Source: Synechocystis sp. PCC 7509 (GTDB taxonomy: Bacteria > Cyanobacteriota > Cyanobacteriia > Cyanobacteriales > Chroococcidiopsidaceae). Taken from it: a stretch of DNA of 64,000 nucleotides. Below, piece by piece: positions 54,186-62,594 of this stretch. The notes under the pieces are model-generated. The model was not told the DNA's origin. It did not search any database and was given only the letters and a program-made list of their open reading frames with translations. Location: assembly GCF_000332075.2 (NCBI RefSeq), contig NZ_ALVU02000001.1, positions 2,740,324 through 2,804,323 on the forward strand, given 5' to 3'. A program made the translations under genes and the position numbers. The stretch's first letter is position 1, and each line of letters opens with the position of its first letter.

Positions 54186-55835
54186 CTATTTGCTACTTGG
54201 TTTTAAGGCTAACAACAGCTCAAATTGGCTAGTAGAATTATTGGGGCTACTGGCGCTCATGCCAATACCGCGAATCGAATCTAAAATAGCTTTGGCTTCT
54301 GGGGTAATAGCACCTGCTTGGGCGTTAGCGTTGATTAAGGCTACAGTTTTATCCATATCTAGATAAAAGTACCCAGCATTCGATTTAGGTAAAGAACTTG
54401 TAGCCGCCTTAAAACTATCGCTGGTAGTTAATAACTGACTTGGCTTGGTTGCCACTACATCGGCAATTGGCCCGCCAAAAGCAATAAACACTGTATCTTT
54501 ATCTAACCATCCATGCCCTAATAGTGCGCCTTGTCCTGGTACTGTCCATTCTGTTACCGCCGTTGCCCCAATGTTTCTGGGTGCGATGCCGATAAAAGAG
54601 GTTTTAGCAATACCATCCAACTTAGTTAAAGTAGCTTCGGCGGTAGGGCGGTTTGTAGTATCAATTAATAATGCGCCACCAAAGCCAATCGGTGCGAGGA
54701 GTCCTTGTTTGGAAGCAATAGCGGCGATTGCAAACTCCCCATCCATCCAGCCAAAAATATCTTTATCTAAATCTAGATTGTAGTTTTGTAGTTGGACTCT
54801 AGCTAAATCTAAGCCCAAACTTACTTGAGGAATATCTTTTGCTTGTTTGCTAAAAGCCAGCCAACTTTTGCTAATTCCCGCGCCAGTAATTAAAGCTATG
54901 GTTTCGGCGGGTAGAATATTTACTAACTTTCCTGAAGACGCTTGATACTGATTTTTTAATAATTGCGAATCTACATCAGCAAGAACTTTTAGCCGCATTC
55001 CATCGTTATCTACTCCCACACCCGCAATTACAGATTTGATTTGTTTTAACTGCGCCAAAGTTTCGGGGGAAATTTGCGAGGCATTGGGGCTACTAGCAAT
55101 TAGTTGTTCTACGACTGCGCCATAATCGGGAAGATAAACTTGCGCGATCGGGTTAGTTAAATCTATACCTTTAGCTAACAGGCTATTTGCACCTTTTTTA
55201 GTAGCAAAAGATGGTTCGCCCTTAAAAGTATCAATGGCTTTTTGTACGCCAATTTTCTCTGGGGCAACTACTACATACTCGTTATTTAAAATGCTGCTGT
55301 AAACTGGAGCGCTAGAACCTTCAATACTTTCAGTAATTTTTTGTCCTTTATATTCTGTCTCAGTGTTTTTAACGTTTTTGCGCTCTTTTAGCTTATTCGC
55401 AAAATTTAAGGCATTTACTTTGTCTTTGATTTTTACGACCATTAGCACATTAAAGCTTTCTGCTTTGGTCTGAGTTGGTTTTGTTGAATTTGGGGGCAAA
55501 ACTGCAATCATTACACCACCAACCCAAGGTTTTAGGTCTTTTTCGTAATCGATGTTAGATTCGGCTAAAGCTTGTTTATTAGCGTCTTGTAAGCTTTTGT
55601 TGATTAAGTTTTTGGCTTCAGGAGTGCCAAATTTTTGCAATTGCTCCCAAGCTTTAGAATCGGGGGAGATAAAGCTTGCCATGAGCGCTTCATCGGGAAC
55701 AATTTTTGCACTAGCTAAAGGACTTGCACCGTCTCCAAGCCCGCCACGAAAATAAACGTAAGCAGCGATTCCACTAGCTACAACTACCGCCGTAGCTAGG
55801 GCTGGAAATAAAAAATTAGATTTTTGTGCTGACAT
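54186..55835 (-). CDS. DUF3352 protein
   Basis: A 549-residue protein with a single N-terminal transmembrane helix (about residues 9-29) and a large extracytoplasmic domain. The order and motifs (DEALMASFISPDSKAWEQLQ, WVGGVMIAVLPP, GWMDGEFAIAAI, NAGYFYLDMDKTVALI) match DUF3352, a family common in cyanobacteria with no assigned role. It is monocistronic and divergent from the ribonucleotide reductase gene. Confidence 0.9.
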   Translation of the reverse strand: MSAQKSNFLFPALATAVVVASGIAAYVYFRGGLGDGASPLASAKIVPDEALMASFISPDSKAWEQLQKFGTPEAKNLINKSLQDANKQALAESNIDYEKDLKPWVGGVMIAVLPPNSTKPTQTKAESFNVLMVVKIKDKVNALNFANKLKERKNVKNTETEYKGQKITESIEGSSAPVYSSILNNEYVVVAPEKIGVQKAIDTFKGEPSFATKKGANSLLAKGIDLTNPIAQVYLPDYGAVVEQLIASSPNASQISPETLAQLKQIKSVIAGVGVDNDGMRLKVLADVDSQLLKNQYQASSGKLVNILPAETIALITGAGISKSWLAFSKQAKDIPQVSLGLDLARVQLQNYNLDLDKDIFGWMDGEFAIAAIASKQGLLAPIGFGGALLIDTTNRPTAEATLTKLDGIAKTSFIGIAPRNIGATAVTEWTVPGQGALLGHGWLDKDTVFIAFGGPIADVVATKPSQLLTTSDSFKAATSSLPKSNAGYFYLDMDKTVALINANAQAGAITPEAKAILDSIRGIGMSASSPNNSTSQFELLLALKPSSK

Positions 55836-56169: not shown

Positions 56170-59100
56170 ATGGTGAGAGATTTAGAGCGGGTGCAAAAAA
56201 GTAATAAGTTTCCTGAATCTGCCCCGGCTGGCGAAGCGGTATTTTATCGGACTTACAGCCGTCGTCAGAGTACCGGAAGGGAATCTTGGCAACAAGTAGG
56301 CGATCGCATTCTCGATGGATTAGTAAGTTTAGGTAAGCTTACCCCCGAAGAAGCCGCTTTAACTGCCAAAATGCAGCAACAACTCAAATCTCTCTCTAGC
56401 GGTCGTTGGCTGTGGGTAGGTGGGACGCAATGGCTAGAAAAGCCAGAGAATTTTTCCGGTGCGTACAATTGTACTAGCACAAATGTATTAGATTGGCGAG
56501 CTTTTGGGCTGATGATGGATTTGGCAATGATGGGTTGCGGCACGGGCGCAGTGCTAGAACCTAAGTATATTAACCAATTGCCAGCAATTCGCAATCGCTT
56601 GAAAGTTGAGTTACAGGGGAAAATCGGTACAACTCCAGCCTCATCACGGCGGGAGAAAACAGAAATTAATATTAATAACAATATTGTTACAATTTACGTC
56701 GGCGATAGCCGTGCTGGGTGGGTTAAGTCTTATCAAACTTTATTAGAACTTTCCAGCGATGAAAGATTTACAGGGGACGTAATAGTTCAAGTAGTTATTG
56801 ATGATATTCGCGGCGAAGGAGAGCGTTTAGAAGGCTTTGGCGGCGTTGCTAACCCGGTTAAACTACCGACATTGTACGATCGCTGTGCCAGTATCCTCAA
56901 CAAGGCTATAGGACGACAATTAAATTCAGTGGAATGCTGTTTATTAATCGATGAAGCGGCTGTAGTCGTTGTTGCAGGAAATGTCAGAAGATGTATCGCT
57001 TACGGGGAAAGGGTTTCAGCAATTTCGGGGATGAAGCCGATTCAAGATATTGCCATCGGTGAATTGGTGCTGACTTCTTCTGGAGAATACAAACCCGTTA
57101 CGGATAAGTTTCTGCAAGGAGTACAAGATGTAGTCGAGATTCGGACTCCCGAAACTTCTATTCGTTGTACTGCCAACCATCGCGTTGCTGTTTACAATGG
57201 CTTGCAATCTTATACTTGGAAATATGCGGGTGAATTACGATCGGGCGATCGCCTAATTTCTGTTCCCCACCGCAAAGGAATACCCTGTTCTACGGCTGAT
57301 TATGCTTGGCTGGTGGGATTCTTTATTGGTGACGGTCATGCAGATATTGCTTCTTTAAAGCGTCGTAACGGTGGCGGCGGATGCGTTACTTTTGCCTTTT
57401 CTAAAGCGCGACTAAACGGCGCTCTCGGTCAAAAATGCCTCCGTATTCTCCAAAGTCTGGGTTACACACCAGCGATCGCTCTAAACGAGAATCACGCCTG
57501 GATTAAAGTTCACCGCAAACAATTAGCTGACGAACTCATTGCGTACAAACAACCTTGGAAAACTCCTGTAATTCCCGAATTCGTTTGGTTGGGAACGGAA
57601 GAAATTCGGGGTGCTTTTCTGGCGGGTGTGTCCGATGCTGATGCTGGCCCATCGCGGAATGTTTTATTGCACTCCAACAAACTAGAATTTTTACGTCAAG
57701 TTCAAAAGTTAGCTTTATCTTTAGGAATTGCCACAACCTTACACGAACGCAGCCCAAAAAGGATCGGAGGTCGCGATACCGTTTATAAGGGTTGTCATTG
57801 GCTAAAAATTCGGGGAATTCAGTCTCAAGTCAATGCAGTTGCTCTCGTAAACCCATACATGGGGCGTACGGGATTCCAGATTTACGGACAGAAAAAAAAC
57901 GGATTGAGTTTGCCCCATCAGTTCATTGAAGAAGCAATGGTTAGCGGTTGGAGAGCTACAACTGTTAGCGAAACTAAGAACATTATTAAACCCAGCCATC
58001 AAGGTGGTTCAATGCGCGATGCCAACTGGGATACTTTGCTCTCTGAGGGCATTGTTAATCCTCATTGGCTACCCTTAGAAGTGCAATTAGTTGTACCCGC
58101 AGGACAAGCTGAAACCTTCGATATTGAAGTTGAGAGCGATGGCGAATTTATTGCCAGTGGTTTGCTGGTGCATAACAGCGCCGGGATGCGCCAGGGGGTA
58201 AGCGAAGACGAGTTATTTGCTAATGCTAAGGGCAATTTATGGAGTCAAGATGAAAATGGTAATTGGCGCATAGATCCCGAAAGAGATGCGTTAAGAATGG
58301 CAAACCATACAAGAGTATTTCACCGCAAACCCACCGAGGAGGAATGTATTAATGCTGTAAGACAACAGTATTATTCAGGAGAAGGGGCGATTCAATGGGC
58401 GGGAGAAGCGATCGCACGGGCAAATGTAGATATAGTAAATACTCCCGAACTAAAAAAAGATTTTCTCAAAACCTACACAAATTCCGAAGCATCGGCGGCG
58501 GATTGGTTGCTTAGTCGCGCTCCCCAAATGCCAGCAACAGAAGTAGAACATCGGCTTTCTAGATATGCTTTAAATCCTTGCGTTACTTCAGATACTTGGA
58601 TTCATACAGAAATTGGTGCAAAGCAAGTTAAGGATTTAATCGGCGTACAACATGGTACTTATGTTAACGGCGAATTATTTAGTACAACGTCTCAAGGATT
58701 CTTTTTTACAGGAGTTAAGCCTGTAGTTAAGTTGCGGACAAAAGAAGGTTATAGCCTGCGACTCACAGAAAATCATCAACTGTTAAAAATCACCGCCCAA
58801 ACTCAAAATAGTCAGTATACAGAATGGGTTGAAGCGGGTGCATTGCAAATAGGCGATCGCATTTCAATCCACAATCACCGAGAATTGCGACCTTGGGATG
58901 GAAAAGGGACAAAAGACGAAGGCTGGCTATTAGGTAACTTGGTAGGCGATGGCTGTTTCAGTCATAATCCTGCAAATTATAGTTATCAGGCTCATTTGAG
59001 ATACTGGGGTGATAGCCAAGTAGAGATGAAAGAGTATGCTCTTGGTTTGGTTAAAAACTCTGTTCAAAGTAGTAACAAATTACAGGGAGTTTACAGCAAA

Positions 59101-61734
59101 CAACATAAGTATTATCAAGTAAGTTCTGCGGGTTTAGCCGGGCTTGCTCGTAATTATGGAATCACCATTAGACACAAAACAATTACACCCGAAATAGAGC
59201 AAGCAAGTTTTAATTTCTACTGTGGTTTTCTGCAAGGAATATTTGATGCTGATGGTAGTGTCCAAGGTACGCAAGAGAAAGGTACAAGCATTCGATTAGC
59301 TCAAAGCAATTTGCCATTACTTGAAGCTGTACAAAGAATGCTACTGCGCTTAGGAATTGCCTCTAGTATTTATCAAAATCGCCGATTAGAAGGCGTAAGA
59401 ATGCTACCAGATTCTAATCGGGAACTAGCAGAATACTTTTGCAAGGCACAACATGAATTAGTTGTAGCTAATGATAATATTGTTACCTTCCAAAAGCTAA
59501 TTGGATTTGCTGAACCCAAAAAAGCTGAACGTTTACAAAGTTTGTTGTCAGGATACAAGCGAAATATTAACCGCGAACGTTTTAGCGTCACAATATCCAG
59601 CATTGAATCTGACGGTCAAGAAGCTGTTTATGATTGTACGGTTCCTGGTGTAGCAAGATTTGATGCGAATGGTTTAGTTGCTCACAATTGCGGTGAAGTA
59701 ATCGGCGCTAATTTTCACTGCGTTTCGGGAGAAACTCAATTAATTACCCGCGATAGCATCCACAAAATTAAAGATGTAGTCGGAGAACAAATCGAAATTT
59801 GGAACGGTAAGCGCTGGAGTAAAGTAGTACCTTTCCAAACCAATATAGAACAAAAGTTATATAGAGTTCGCTTTGCTGATGGTTCTTACTTAGATGCTAC
59901 AGAGTACCATCGCTTCTTTGTCAAAGATAGATTTGGTAAAGAATACAAAGAGGTACAAACCAAAGACTTATTAAGTTACAGCAAGTACAGTATCCACACA
60001 GAACCTTTTACTATTGATTACCTTGATGGAGTTAAGGTAGATCCAGCCTATGCTTACACTCTAGGCGTAGCCGTAGGTGATGGCACAATAGATAGTAATG
60101 GTAATGCAAAAATCCGTTTTTATGAGAAAAAGGCGGAACTTGTGGTTGCAGGGAAAAAATCCCCCGCAAGAAACTACAGTTACTTACCTACCTTTGTAGA
60201 TGTTACAGATTTAGGGTTTTCAGGGGAACTATTACAGCGATTAAAAAATGACCCAGACTCGTTAAATGCGATCGCGTGTTGGCACAAAAAAGCTATCCTG
60301 TCCTTTATTGCTGGACTTGCAGACACTGATGGCTCTAACACTGATAGCAACGGCATTAGAATCTATGTTTCCGATTACCAAAGGGCAAATCGTTTACAAC
60401 TTCTCTTGGCTAAATGTGCGATTAGGTCGTCTGTAAATATCATGGCACGACGTGCAGATACAACAAATTTAGGTCAAAGAGCCAAAGATTTGTACTATTT
60501 GCAAATTACTGATTGTGGGGAAATTCCTTGTCAGCGTTTAGATACAACCAAAGGACATAAGCCTACAAATAAAGGCAAATGGCAAATTATTCAAAGCGTT
60601 GAAGAATTACCAGGACAACACGATACTTATTGTTTCAACGAACCAGAATTTAACAAAGGTGTTTTTGGCAATACGTTAACAGGAAACTGCAATCTTGCGG
60701 AAATTCACCTCAATCAAATCGACCCCCACAACTACCAAGAACAAAAAGATGCTTTTACCGCCGGAGCGCTTTCGGTTGCTTCTTTATTGAACCATCAATT
60801 TATTGAAGAAAGATACCAATCTTCGCGGGAATTAGATCCTATTGTGGGCGTATCTTTTACCGGATTATTTGACTTTTTTGTCAATGCTTTTGGTACGCAG
60901 TGGCTGCGCTGGTGGGAAGCTGGAAGACCGCAAACCGAGGCAGGATTGGAGTTTAAACAGCAAGAAGAAGCCTATTTAAGTCGGTGGAAAGAAATTGTTA
61001 ATGAGGTAGTGTGGCACTATTGCGACGAGCATAATCTTAAGCGCCCAAATCGCTGTACAACGGTGCAACCATCCGGCACAAAATCTTTACTCACAGGCGC
61101 GTCTCCGGGCTGGCATCCCCCCAAAGCCCAACGTTTTATTCGCCGAATCACTTTTCGCAAAAACGACCCCGTAGCCTTGGCTTGTATTGATTACGGCTAC
61201 AATATTGTGCCTTCGCAATCTGATAAAGATGAAAATGGCAACTTGCTAAACAATCCTTTTGACGATCGCTGTACAGAATGGCTTGTAGAAATTCCCGTTG
61301 CTGTACCTTGGGCAGATTTTCCTGGAGCGGATGAAATAGAGATTAGTCAGTTTAGCGCGGCGGCTCAGATGGACTTTTATATGCAGGTGCAAAAGTATTA
61401 TGTCGCTCATAATACCAGCGCCACTATTGAGCTAAGAGAACACGAAATTGAAAGCTTGGGGACGCGCATTTACGAAGCAATCCGCGATGACGAGGGTTAT
61501 ATTTCTGCGGCTTTATTGGCTCGATTTGACGCGCATCAAACCTTCCCGCGTTTACCTTTTGAACCGATTACTAAGGAAACTTACGATCGCTTAATGCAGG
61601 AAGTAAAAAGCCGCCGCCAAACCGATGATTTTTACGCCGCGTTGAGTCGCTATGATTCTGGGGAAATGCCTGAAGCTGGTCCGGCGGGTTGCGATTCAGA
61701 TAAATGTTTATTTGCGGCGGAAGAACCCAAGTAG
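56170..61734 (+). CDS. nrdJ: Adenosylcobalamin-dependent (class II) ribonucleotide reductase with three inteins
   Basis: Monomeric class II ribonucleoside-triphosphate reductase: it makes deoxyribonucleotides using B12, without oxygen. The precursor is 1854 residues; removing three inteins (395, 370, 323) leaves 766, the normal size. Compared with Lactobacillus RTPR, C101 (AYNCTST) matches C119. C1174 in NP|CGEV matches the thiyl-radical C408, C1507 in CNLAEI matches C419, and C1841/C1846 (CDSDKC) match the C-terminal thiol pair. Exteins: 1-274, 670-803, 1174-1183, 1507-1854. The second and third inteins sit directly before catalytic cysteines, so the enzyme is inactive until spliced. Confidence 0.96.
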   Translation: MVRDLERVQKSNKFPESAPAGEAVFYRTYSRRQSTGRESWQQVGDRILDGLVSLGKLTPEEAALTAKMQQQLKSLSSGRWLWVGGTQWLEKPENFSGAYNCTSTNVLDWRAFGLMMDLAMMGCGTGAVLEPKYINQLPAIRNRLKVELQGKIGTTPASSRREKTEININNNIVTIYVGDSRAGWVKSYQTLLELSSDERFTGDVIVQVVIDDIRGEGERLEGFGGVANPVKLPTLYDRCASILNKAIGRQLNSVECCLLIDEAAVVVVAGNVRRCIAYGERVSAISGMKPIQDIAIGELVLTSSGEYKPVTDKFLQGVQDVVEIRTPETSIRCTANHRVAVYNGLQSYTWKYAGELRSGDRLISVPHRKGIPCSTADYAWLVGFFIGDGHADIASLKRRNGGGGCVTFAFSKARLNGALGQKCLRILQSLGYTPAIALNENHAWIKVHRKQLADELIAYKQPWKTPVIPEFVWLGTEEIRGAFLAGVSDADAGPSRNVLLHSNKLEFLRQVQKLALSLGIATTLHERSPKRIGGRDTVYKGCHWLKIRGIQSQVNAVALVNPYMGRTGFQIYGQKKNGLSLPHQFIEEAMVSGWRATTVSETKNIIKPSHQGGSMRDANWDTLLSEGIVNPHWLPLEVQLVVPAGQAETFDIEVESDGEFIASGLLVHNSAGMRQGVSEDELFANAKGNLWSQDENGNWRIDPERDALRMANHTRVFHRKPTEEECINAVRQQYYSGEGAIQWAGEAIARANVDIVNTPELKKDFLKTYTNSEASAADWLLSRAPQMPATEVEHRLSRYALNPCVTSDTWIHTEIGAKQVKDLIGVQHGTYVNGELFSTTSQGFFFTGVKPVVKLRTKEGYSLRLTENHQLLKITAQTQNSQYTEWVEAGALQIGDRISIHNHRELRPWDGKGTKDEGWLLGNLVGDGCFSHNPANYSYQAHLRYWGDSQVEMKEYALGLVKNSVQSSNKLQGVYSKQHKYYQVSSAGLAGLARNYGITIRHKTITPEIEQASFNFYCGFLQGIFDADGSVQGTQEKGTSIRLAQSNLPLLEAVQRMLLRLGIASSIYQNRRLEGVRMLPDSNRELAEYFCKAQHELVVANDNIVTFQKLIGFAEPKKAERLQSLLSGYKRNINRERFSVTISSIESDGQEAVYDCTVPGVARFDANGLVAHNCGEVIGANFHCVSGETQLITRDSIHKIKDVVGEQIEIWNGKRWSKVVPFQTNIEQKLYRVRFADGSYLDATEYHRFFVKDRFGKEYKEVQTKDLLSYSKYSIHTEPFTIDYLDGVKVDPAYAYTLGVAVGDGTIDSNGNAKIRFYEKKAELVVAGKKSPARNYSYLPTFVDVTDLGFSGELLQRLKNDPDSLNAIACWHKKAILSFIAGLADTDGSNTDSNGIRIYVSDYQRANRLQLLLAKCAIRSSVNIMARRADTTNLGQRAKDLYYLQITDCGEIPCQRLDTTKGHKPTNKGKWQIIQSVEELPGQHDTYCFNEPEFNKGVFGNTLTGNCNLAEIHLNQIDPHNYQEQKDAFTAGALSVASLLNHQFIEERYQSSRELDPIVGVSFTGLFDFFVNAFGTQWLRWWEAGRPQTEAGLEFKQQEEAYLSRWKEIVNEVVWHYCDEHNLKRPNRCTTVQPSGTKSLLTGASPGWHPPKAQRFIRRITFRKNDPVALACIDYGYNIVPSQSDKDENGNLLNNPFDDRCTEWLVEIPVAVPWADFPGADEIEISQFSAAAQMDFYMQVQKYYVAHNTSATIELREHEIESLGTRIYEAIRDDEGYISAALLARFDAHQTFPRLPFEPITKETYDRLMQEVKSRRQTDDFYAALSRYDSGEMPEAGPAGCDSDKCLFAAEEPK
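56992..58176 (+). other. Intein 1 (395 aa), LAGLIDADG type
   Basis: Begins at C275 (CIAYGERVSAISG) and ends ...GLLVHN before Ser (SAGMRQG). Splicing block B is TANH; block G is VHN|S. The homing endonuclease motifs are WLVGFFIGDGHAD and AFLAGVSDADAG. The +1 extein residue is serine. It inserts after NVRR in the reductase. Confidence 0.93.
58579..59688 (+). other. Intein 2 (370 aa), LAGLIDADG type
   Basis: Begins CVTSDTWIHTEIG and ends ...GLVAHN before Cys (CGEVIGANFH). Block B is TENH; endonuclease motifs are WLLGNLVGDGCFS and FLQGIFDADGSV. The +1 cysteine is the reductase's thiyl-radical residue (L. leichmannii C408 equivalent). Confidence 0.93.
59719..60687 (+). other. Intein 3 (323 aa), LAGLIDADG type
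   Basis: Begins CVSGETQLITRDS and ends ...NTLTGN before Cys (CNLAEI). Block B is TEYH; endonuclease motifs are YTLGVAVGDGTID and FIAGLADTDGSN. The penultimate residue is Gly rather than the usual His. The +1 cysteine matches C419 of RTPR. Only 10 extein residues separate it from intein 2. Confidence 0.92.
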
Positions 61735-62303: not shown

Positions 62304-62594
62304 ATGACTATTTACGTTGGAAACCTCTCTTACCGTGCTACCGAAGAAGACTTAAGAACAGTATTTGCGGAGTACGGCGCAATCAAAAGAATTGTTTTGC
62401 CTACAGACCGAGAAACCGGACGGCTGCGAGGTTTTGCCTTTGTTGATATGAATGAAGATGCCCAAGAAGACACCGCCATTACCGAGTTAGATGGCGCAGA
62501 ATGGATGGGCCGTCAGTTGAGAGTAAATAAAGCCAAGCCGAAAGAGGACAACCGACGGGAGGGCGGCGGAGTTTCTAGGAGAAGCGAATATTAA
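62304..62594 (+). CDS. Cyanobacterial RRM-type RNA-binding protein
   Basis: A 96-residue protein with one RNA recognition motif: RNP2 IYVGNL (residues 3-8) and RNP1 RGFAFVDM (42-49). The short C-terminal tail is Gly/Arg containing (REGGGVSRRSEY). Cyanobacterial Rbp proteins bind single-stranded RNA, and many are induced by cold through long 5' leaders. Here about 200 bp of leader with repeats precedes the start. A hairpin terminator follows the gene. Confidence 0.95.
   Translation: MTIYVGNLSYRATEEDLRTVFAEYGAIKRIVLPTDRETGRLRGFAFVDMNEDAQEDTAITELDGAEWMGRQLRVNKAKPKEDNRREGGGVSRRSEY

Follow-up and report, generated by a model that had tools for sequence, protein, structure and literature searches.

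The window analysed here, a stretch of 64,000 nucleotides from Synechocystis sp. PCC 7509, carries on its forward strand a single stop-free frame of 1854 aa (56170–61734). The frame matches TIGR02505, the model of AdoCbl-dependent ribonucleoside-triphosphate reductase (RTPR), in three stretches with 700 bits against a cut-off of 340, and its predicted product is a class II (AdoCbl-dependent, NrdJ) ribonucleoside-triphosphate reductase with three inteins. Removal of the inteins leaves an extein of 766 residues, the length of a full enzyme. Specifically, extein residues 1–274 (56170–56991, ending in GNVRR) are followed by intein 1 (395 aa, 56992–58176), residues 275–408 (58177–58578, ending in ALNP) by intein 2 (370 aa, 58579–59688), and residues 409–418 (59689–59718, CGEVIGANFH) by intein 3 (323 aa, 59719–60687), while residues 419–766 and the stop codon (60688–61734) complete the gene. 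All of these features lie on the forward strand. The neighbouring genes encode a DUF3352 protein (54186–55835, reverse strand) and a small RRM RNA-binding protein (62304–62594, forward strand). An Rfam scan of the whole window returned nothing at gathering scores, and no B12 riboswitch.

Insertion sites and catalytic cysteines

Inteins 1, 2 and 3 occupy sites that we designate a (between extein residues 274 and 275), b (408 and 409) and c (418 and 419); a further site, d, lies between residues 548 and 549. The initial annotation placed intein 2 directly before the equivalent of C408 and intein 3 directly before that of C419, with only the ten extein residues CGEVIGANFH in between. To locate the junctions, we built a profile from 20 intein-free relatives and aligned it to the RTPR structure 1L1L. 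In this alignment, NPCGEI maps to chain residues 406–411 and CNL to 419–421; extein C409 corresponds to C408 of 1L1L, and extein C419 to C419, the structure being longer than the window extein by one residue between the two. All three placements hold, and the junctions of the 766-residue extein fall where they had been put. We take C408 to be the thiyl-radical cysteine and C419 to be a redox-pair cysteine of RTPR. NPC and CNL are invariant across the 20 intein-free relatives, and the window extein has the same residues.

Intein 2 (C...AHN, followed by C) ends directly before the C408 equivalent, which is the first codon of segment 409–418 and the +1 nucleophile of the intein. Likewise, intein 3 (C...TGN, followed by C) ends directly before the C419 equivalent, the first codon of the last extein segment and its own +1 nucleophile. 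CGEVIGANFH is the sole extein between the two inteins, and 30 bp separate site b from site c. Intein 1 (C...VHN, followed by S) is of a rare type and has Ser at +1; a single-sequence phmmer alignment puts R319 and S320 of 1L1L on either side of site a. The catalytic cysteines would serve as +1 nucleophiles because a Cys, Ser or Thr is required there for splicing, and would lie at intein junctions because invariant residues are stable homing targets.

Two further cysteine motifs are present in the extein. At its C-terminal end, GCDSDKC holds a pair of cysteines five apart that resembles C731/C736 by motif, past the aligned part of 1L1L, and this pair is invariant in 20/20 relatives. The YNC motif, a candidate for the C119 equivalent, is likewise invariant in 20/20 relatives; the profile alignment to 1L1L does not bring its region onto C119.

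Integrity of the inteins and the reductase complement

Each of the three inteins contains the residues of a class 1 intein, namely Cys1, the block-B Thr and His, the terminal Asn and a Cys or Ser at +1. Furthermore, each contains both LAGLIDADG acids: D114 in FIGDG (57331–57333) and D217 in SDADA (57640–57642) in intein 1, D124 (58948–58950) and D225 (59251–59253) in intein 2, and D121 (60079–60081) and D204 (60328–60330) in intein 3, all on the forward strand. Scanned alone, every one of them scores above the cut-off of LAGLIDADG_3, and these are the only matches to that model in the genome. The splicing models respond unevenly. Intein 2 is above the cut-off of Pfam Intein_splicing, which inteins 1 and 3 match below cut-off; the NCBIfam N-terminal splicing model reaches its cut-off in inteins 2 and 3 and has no match in intein 1, and the corresponding C-terminal model does so in intein 2 only. 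The splicing part of intein 1 matches the structure of the M. tuberculosis RecA intein (2imz) with an E value of 2e-6. For inteins 1 and 3, AlphaFold gave models with a mean pLDDT of 34 and 37, respectively, which were kept out of the evidence. The residue audit and the domain scans confirm the proposal of three complete inteins, each with splicing blocks and a LAGLIDADG pair; a chance origin is excluded because relatives have intein-free alleles of the same enzyme and inserts at the same codons.

We then compared block F and the adjacent positions with 30 site-a, 24 site-b and 25 site-c inteins, a sample that leaves out G354, G372 and G277. In inteins 1, 2 and 3, F:4 is D, D and C, F:13 is G, A and N, and the penultimate residue (G:6) is H, H and G. 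The F:4 Cys and the penultimate Gly of intein 3 are common to 25/25 site-c inteins, and its Asn at F:13 recurs in 5/25; the Ala of intein 2 at F:13 belongs to a site at which His is absent in 20/24 inteins and Ala or Ser is found in 19/24. Intein 1 stands alone at its site: F:13 (58141–58143, forward strand) is Gly, encoded by GGC, and is His in the other 29 of the 30 inteins. The endonuclease acids are both retained in 25/25 inteins at site c, and at site b the first is retained in 22/24 and the second in 19/24. Since the block-F His is absent from all three window inteins, their splicing efficiency is uncertain.

We searched the genome, rated 100% complete, for PF02867 (class I large chain), PF00268 (small chain) and PF13597 (class III), and found no match, whereas in 14 control genomes the three models matched in 11, 7 and 6, respectively. 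Because the window's own enzyme escapes PF02867, this model is informative solely on class I-like large chains. A search of the same genome with the extein gave three matches, all within this gene, and hence no second class II copy. As far as found by these searches, the gene encodes the only ribonucleotide reductase of the genome. With no other reductase found, dNTP synthesis should need all three splicing events, provided that splicing proceeds as the intein residues suggest. The dependence on three splicing events, proposed from the gene alone, is strengthened by the lack of any other reductase family or second copy among the matches, and we infer it from sequence.

The nucleophiles and block-B residues are intact in all three inteins, and the one departure that stands out is the Gly of intein 1. 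The codon GGC is two base changes away from a His codon, and this substitution could mean that splicing is poor in at least one intein, intein 1 being the likeliest, leaving a hypomorphic reductase and an element heading for loss. However, intein 1 retains C1, the block-B T and H, the F:4 D, the penultimate H and the terminal N. F:4 and F:13 are moreover given as less conserved positions, with Cys as the second most common residue at F:4, in the accessible part of PMC4031507, and 20/24 site-b inteins also do without the His. Finally, given no other reductase among the matches, a severe defect would not be expected to last. We therefore regard poor splicing as unlikely and expect that all three inteins would splice.

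Distribution and exchange of the inteins

The extein search gave matches in 40/60 relatives and 81/244 genomes of the phylum, in 109 different genomes. We mapped 107 genes, 105 from the extein searches and two (G354 and G372) from a search with intein 1, whose inclusion biases the intein counts upward; G100 (a remote 34% match), G209, G254 and G279 were left out of the tree, and site b of G277 is uncovered. Inteins are present in 61/107 genes and absent from 46/107. One intein is carried by 41 genes, two by 13, three by six and four by one, and the seven genes with three or more are those of G000, G002, G033, G057, G131 (where the gene is in two pieces), G199 and G354. The architecture had been described as rare rather than unique, and multi-intein reductase genes as known in cyanobacteria. 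Rarity stands for three inteins (7/107) but not for the presence of any intein in the gene (61/107).

By site, a is occupied in 32 genes, b in 25, c in 28 and d in 4 of the 107. Sites b and c are occupied together in 9/107 genes, against 6.5 expected, with no mutual exclusion between inteins at these two sites. In 37/107 genes, all of the counted inserts are absent. The fewest state changes on the extein tree are 19 for site a, 21 for b and 23 for c. Within the window's genus, G002 has inteins at a, b and c, G001 at a and b with c empty, G004 at b only and G003 at c only, while the extein search of a further congener, G005 (genome 74% complete), gave no match.

Several genes in the survey have an unusual layout. 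In G354 (L221), a 2008-aa open frame carries inteins at all four sites, and the 5' part of the gene lies outside the frame. The reductase is split into two genes about 84 kb apart in G131 (L191, L192) and about 720 kb apart in G277 (L214, L215). The first half of the G131 gene stops just ahead of the active-site segment and the second half starts anew before NPCGE; no split intein was seen at this break.

The three window inteins differ in their relation to those of congeners. Intein 2 is 91–95% identical to the inteins of three congeners (92–95% to G001 and G002), and intein 3 is 93% (G002) and 85% identical to those of two, values close to those of the exteins. Intein 1, in contrast, is only 32–33% identical to the site-a inteins of G001 and G002, whose exteins are 94–95% identical to that of the window. 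Its closer relatives are the site-a inteins of G020 (65%) and G372 (69%), and querying 386 genomes with intein 1 yielded, besides the site-a inteins of G001, G002, G020 and G372, two weak matches only. Sorted by their ends, site-a inteins fall into three types, found in 3, 13 and 16 genes, and swaps of type recur between near relatives: G119 and G148 have exteins 97% and inteins 34% identical. Across the survey, intein and extein identities correlate (Spearman 0.71–0.74, over non-independent homologous pairs), so that much of the inheritance looks vertical.

Inteins 2 and 3 are under purifying selection. The dN/dS of intein 2 against three congeners is 0.08–0.125 and that of intein 3 against two is 0.075–0.089, compared with 0.03–0.09 for the C-terminal extein. 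With part boundaries set by hand, constraint is equally strong in the endonuclease part and the splicing part (0.06–0.10 versus 0.06–0.17).

Homologous inteins also occur in viral copies of the gene. In IMG/VR, an alignment search recovered relatives of the enzyme at 63 loci, on contigs whose viral nature is IMG/VR's own prediction plus a few phage-type neighbours, with matches to phage polymerase exonuclease, DNA methyltransferase, ParB-like protein and SSB families. Among the 63 loci, inserts are present at b in eight, c in four, d in five and a in two. The site-b inserts are those of L273, L274, L275, L277, L278, L280, L281 and L282, of which that of L275 is cut off, that of L280 reads with stops, so that its identities were unused, and those of L277 and L278 are different inteins, with no more than 30% identity to host inteins; the site-d inserts of L273 and L282 are cut off and that of L280 is partial. 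L273 combines b, c and d, and L281 (1–5229) and L282 combine a, b, c and d.

Some viral inteins are closer to host inteins than the enzymes are to each other. Specifically, three viral c inteins share 82–83% identity with the one in host G076, at extein identities of 65–70%, and four viral b inteins share 76–78% with those of hosts G052 and G095, at extein identities of 63–69%; three of the four viral exteins compared (L273, L281, L282) are partial, with 539–551 residues. For the window the values are 60–61% at b and 67–68% at c, against 62–67% for the exteins, with little or no intein excess. These identities indicate viral exchange for other hosts, not for the window's host, and point to viral contigs with inteins at the same sites as a plausible route of spread; any direction of transfer is one that we infer. 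A pattern search of the viral contigs with intein 1 gave no match. The whole precursor matched 682 phage records and 14 plasmid records, in neither set over more than 80% of the query.

Multi-intein viral loci such as L273, L281 and L282 raise the question of whether the three window inteins arrived as one block, for example from a viral copy of this kind. This is scarcely credible, because every site has its own pattern across the window's genus, and because, against G001 and G002 with their 94–95% identical exteins, intein 1 is distant and intein 2 (and intein 3, against G002) close. Moreover, the two viral site-a inserts are mini-inteins of 134 aa that are 45% identical to intein 1 and 73–75% identical to another type.

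Instead, we consider it very probable that the gene encodes the sole reductase to be found in this genome, that its three inteins most likely splice themselves to yield the 766-residue enzyme, and that they are homing parasites with viruses as likely carriers. According to this model, three full-length inteins would excise themselves from the precursor, and each, with an endonuclease that has both acids and would be able to cut, would exploit a near-invariant codon of an essential gene. The inteins would be gained, lost or swapped between lineages, and viruses with the same gene and homologous inteins at a, b, c and d would be the likely carriers. The patchy filling of sites among close relatives, congeners included, is as expected of homing parasites.

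Splicing had also been proposed as a possible control point. If the radical and redox cysteines of the enzyme, which double as +1 nucleophiles for inteins 2 and 3, were held by oxidation or by a metal, splicing and catalysis would both stall, and conditional splicing would gate the dNTP supply. The geometry of the junctions at the C408 and C419 equivalents, the lack of another reductase among the matches, the purifying selection on inteins 2 and 3 and the absence of the block-F His from all three inteins are compatible with such a gate, and some inteins are disulfide- or metal-sensitive according to the accessible part of PMC4031507. The same source, as far as accessible, reports no physiological role for conditional splicing by its time. 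Furthermore, the sites are empty or otherwise filled in congeners and close relatives, with 37/107 genes free of counted inserts, and the endonuclease part is constrained as strongly as the splicing part, which homing accounts for and control does not. We thus find no support for a control point and give conditional splicing a slim chance; homing with viruses as likely carriers is a better account than a conserved control switch. A bolder version is a long shot: because the two cysteines that inteins 2 and 3 need for splicing are also those of catalysis, one redox or metal signal could hold both processes, and with the loss of the F-His from intein 1, maturation could be slow and conditional and set the dNTP level. 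If this were true, maturation of the cell's only reductase would be a conditional step that sets the dNTP supply.

The sole reductase found, three endonuclease-bearing inteins and congeners with an intein at b only or c only make this a natural test bed, in which one can also ask if an essential enzyme ever depends on conditional splicing.

Intein-bearing reductase genes of cyanobacteria are already known, and the window gene is a further example. The RIR gene of Trichodesmium erythraeum, described by Liu, Yang and Meng in 2003, reportedly has four inteins and three group II introns. It resembles the window gene as a cyanobacterial ribonucleotide reductase gene with several inteins; compared by description rather than site by site, the window gene differs in having three inteins and no intron. 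In Thermosynechococcus, nrdJ likewise has full-length inteins, which vary among close strains, and unlike here a three-intein gene is not described in the accessible part of PMC9403480. The RIR gene of Nostoc punctiforme has a group I intron (Meng et al. 2007, via the accessible part of the review PMC12702839), a self-splicing insert in the same gene that acts at the RNA level. The neighbouring haloarchaeal inteins MCM-a and MCM-d offer a parallel, an essential gene in which several inteins with endonucleases lie near one another; there, neighbouring inteins hinder each other's homing, and singles and doubles coexist (PMC10643990, accessible part). MCM is an archaeal helicase, whereas in the reductase b and c lie 30 bp apart and are filled together in 9/107 genes. 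Congeners with b only or c only allow a bacterial test of the mutual hindrance seen in the archaeon.

Reductase genes are a recurrent intein target in viruses, and two nrdJ genes with inteins are noted in Global Ocean Sampling data (PMC3653736, accessible part). The cases treated singly in that part are nrdA, nrdE and nrdD; unlike in our survey, an nrdJ with several sites is not described. Among about 18,700 marine viral reductases, 8 contain inteins according to the accessible part of PMC12918982. In literature titles and the starts of abstracts, we found no description of a viral NrdJ that has inteins at more than one of these sites, a weak negative since most subscription journals are outside the coverage.

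Putative introns beside site b

In 20/107 genes, a stop-containing insert is present after extein codon 410. These inserts begin after the GGT of this codon, six bases beyond the site of intein 2, and the fewest state changes for them on the extein tree are 14. A site-b intein and a codon-410 insert occur together in 0/107 genes, against 4.7 expected (Fisher p 0.003). With ancestry-independent pairs, of which there are 17, none changes the same way and about three change in opposite ways (median p 0.25, at low power). The exclusion is a lead only, and target competition is its simplest reading.

With Rfam, 17 of the 20 stop-containing inserts were scanned, in two sets of 14 of which the second added three new loci; group I was reached in two inserts (L161, L176), and the second set gave no group I match at E 0.01. 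The remaining codon-410 inserts have ends and conserved stretches in common, and are putative group I introns on the basis of AGACTA/TAGTC versus AGCGTA/TACGC, read by eye without a covariance model. The short inserts missed by the Rfam group I model include L159, L163, L169, L170, L185, L197, L198 and L210, in which AGCGTA/TACGC stands at the position of AGACTA/TAGTC in G023, G056, G084 and G237. Read by eye, the difference resembles a change of both pairing partners in P7 of a variant group I intron.

The viral locus L276 likewise has a short codon-410 insert. G269, one of the 37 genes without counted inserts, has a group II intron instead (L213, identified by Rfam), which holds a 436-aa open frame and lies near extein codon 86 of the same gene. 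In G234 (L208), the codon-410 insert spans 1153 bases and holds an open frame of 345 aa.
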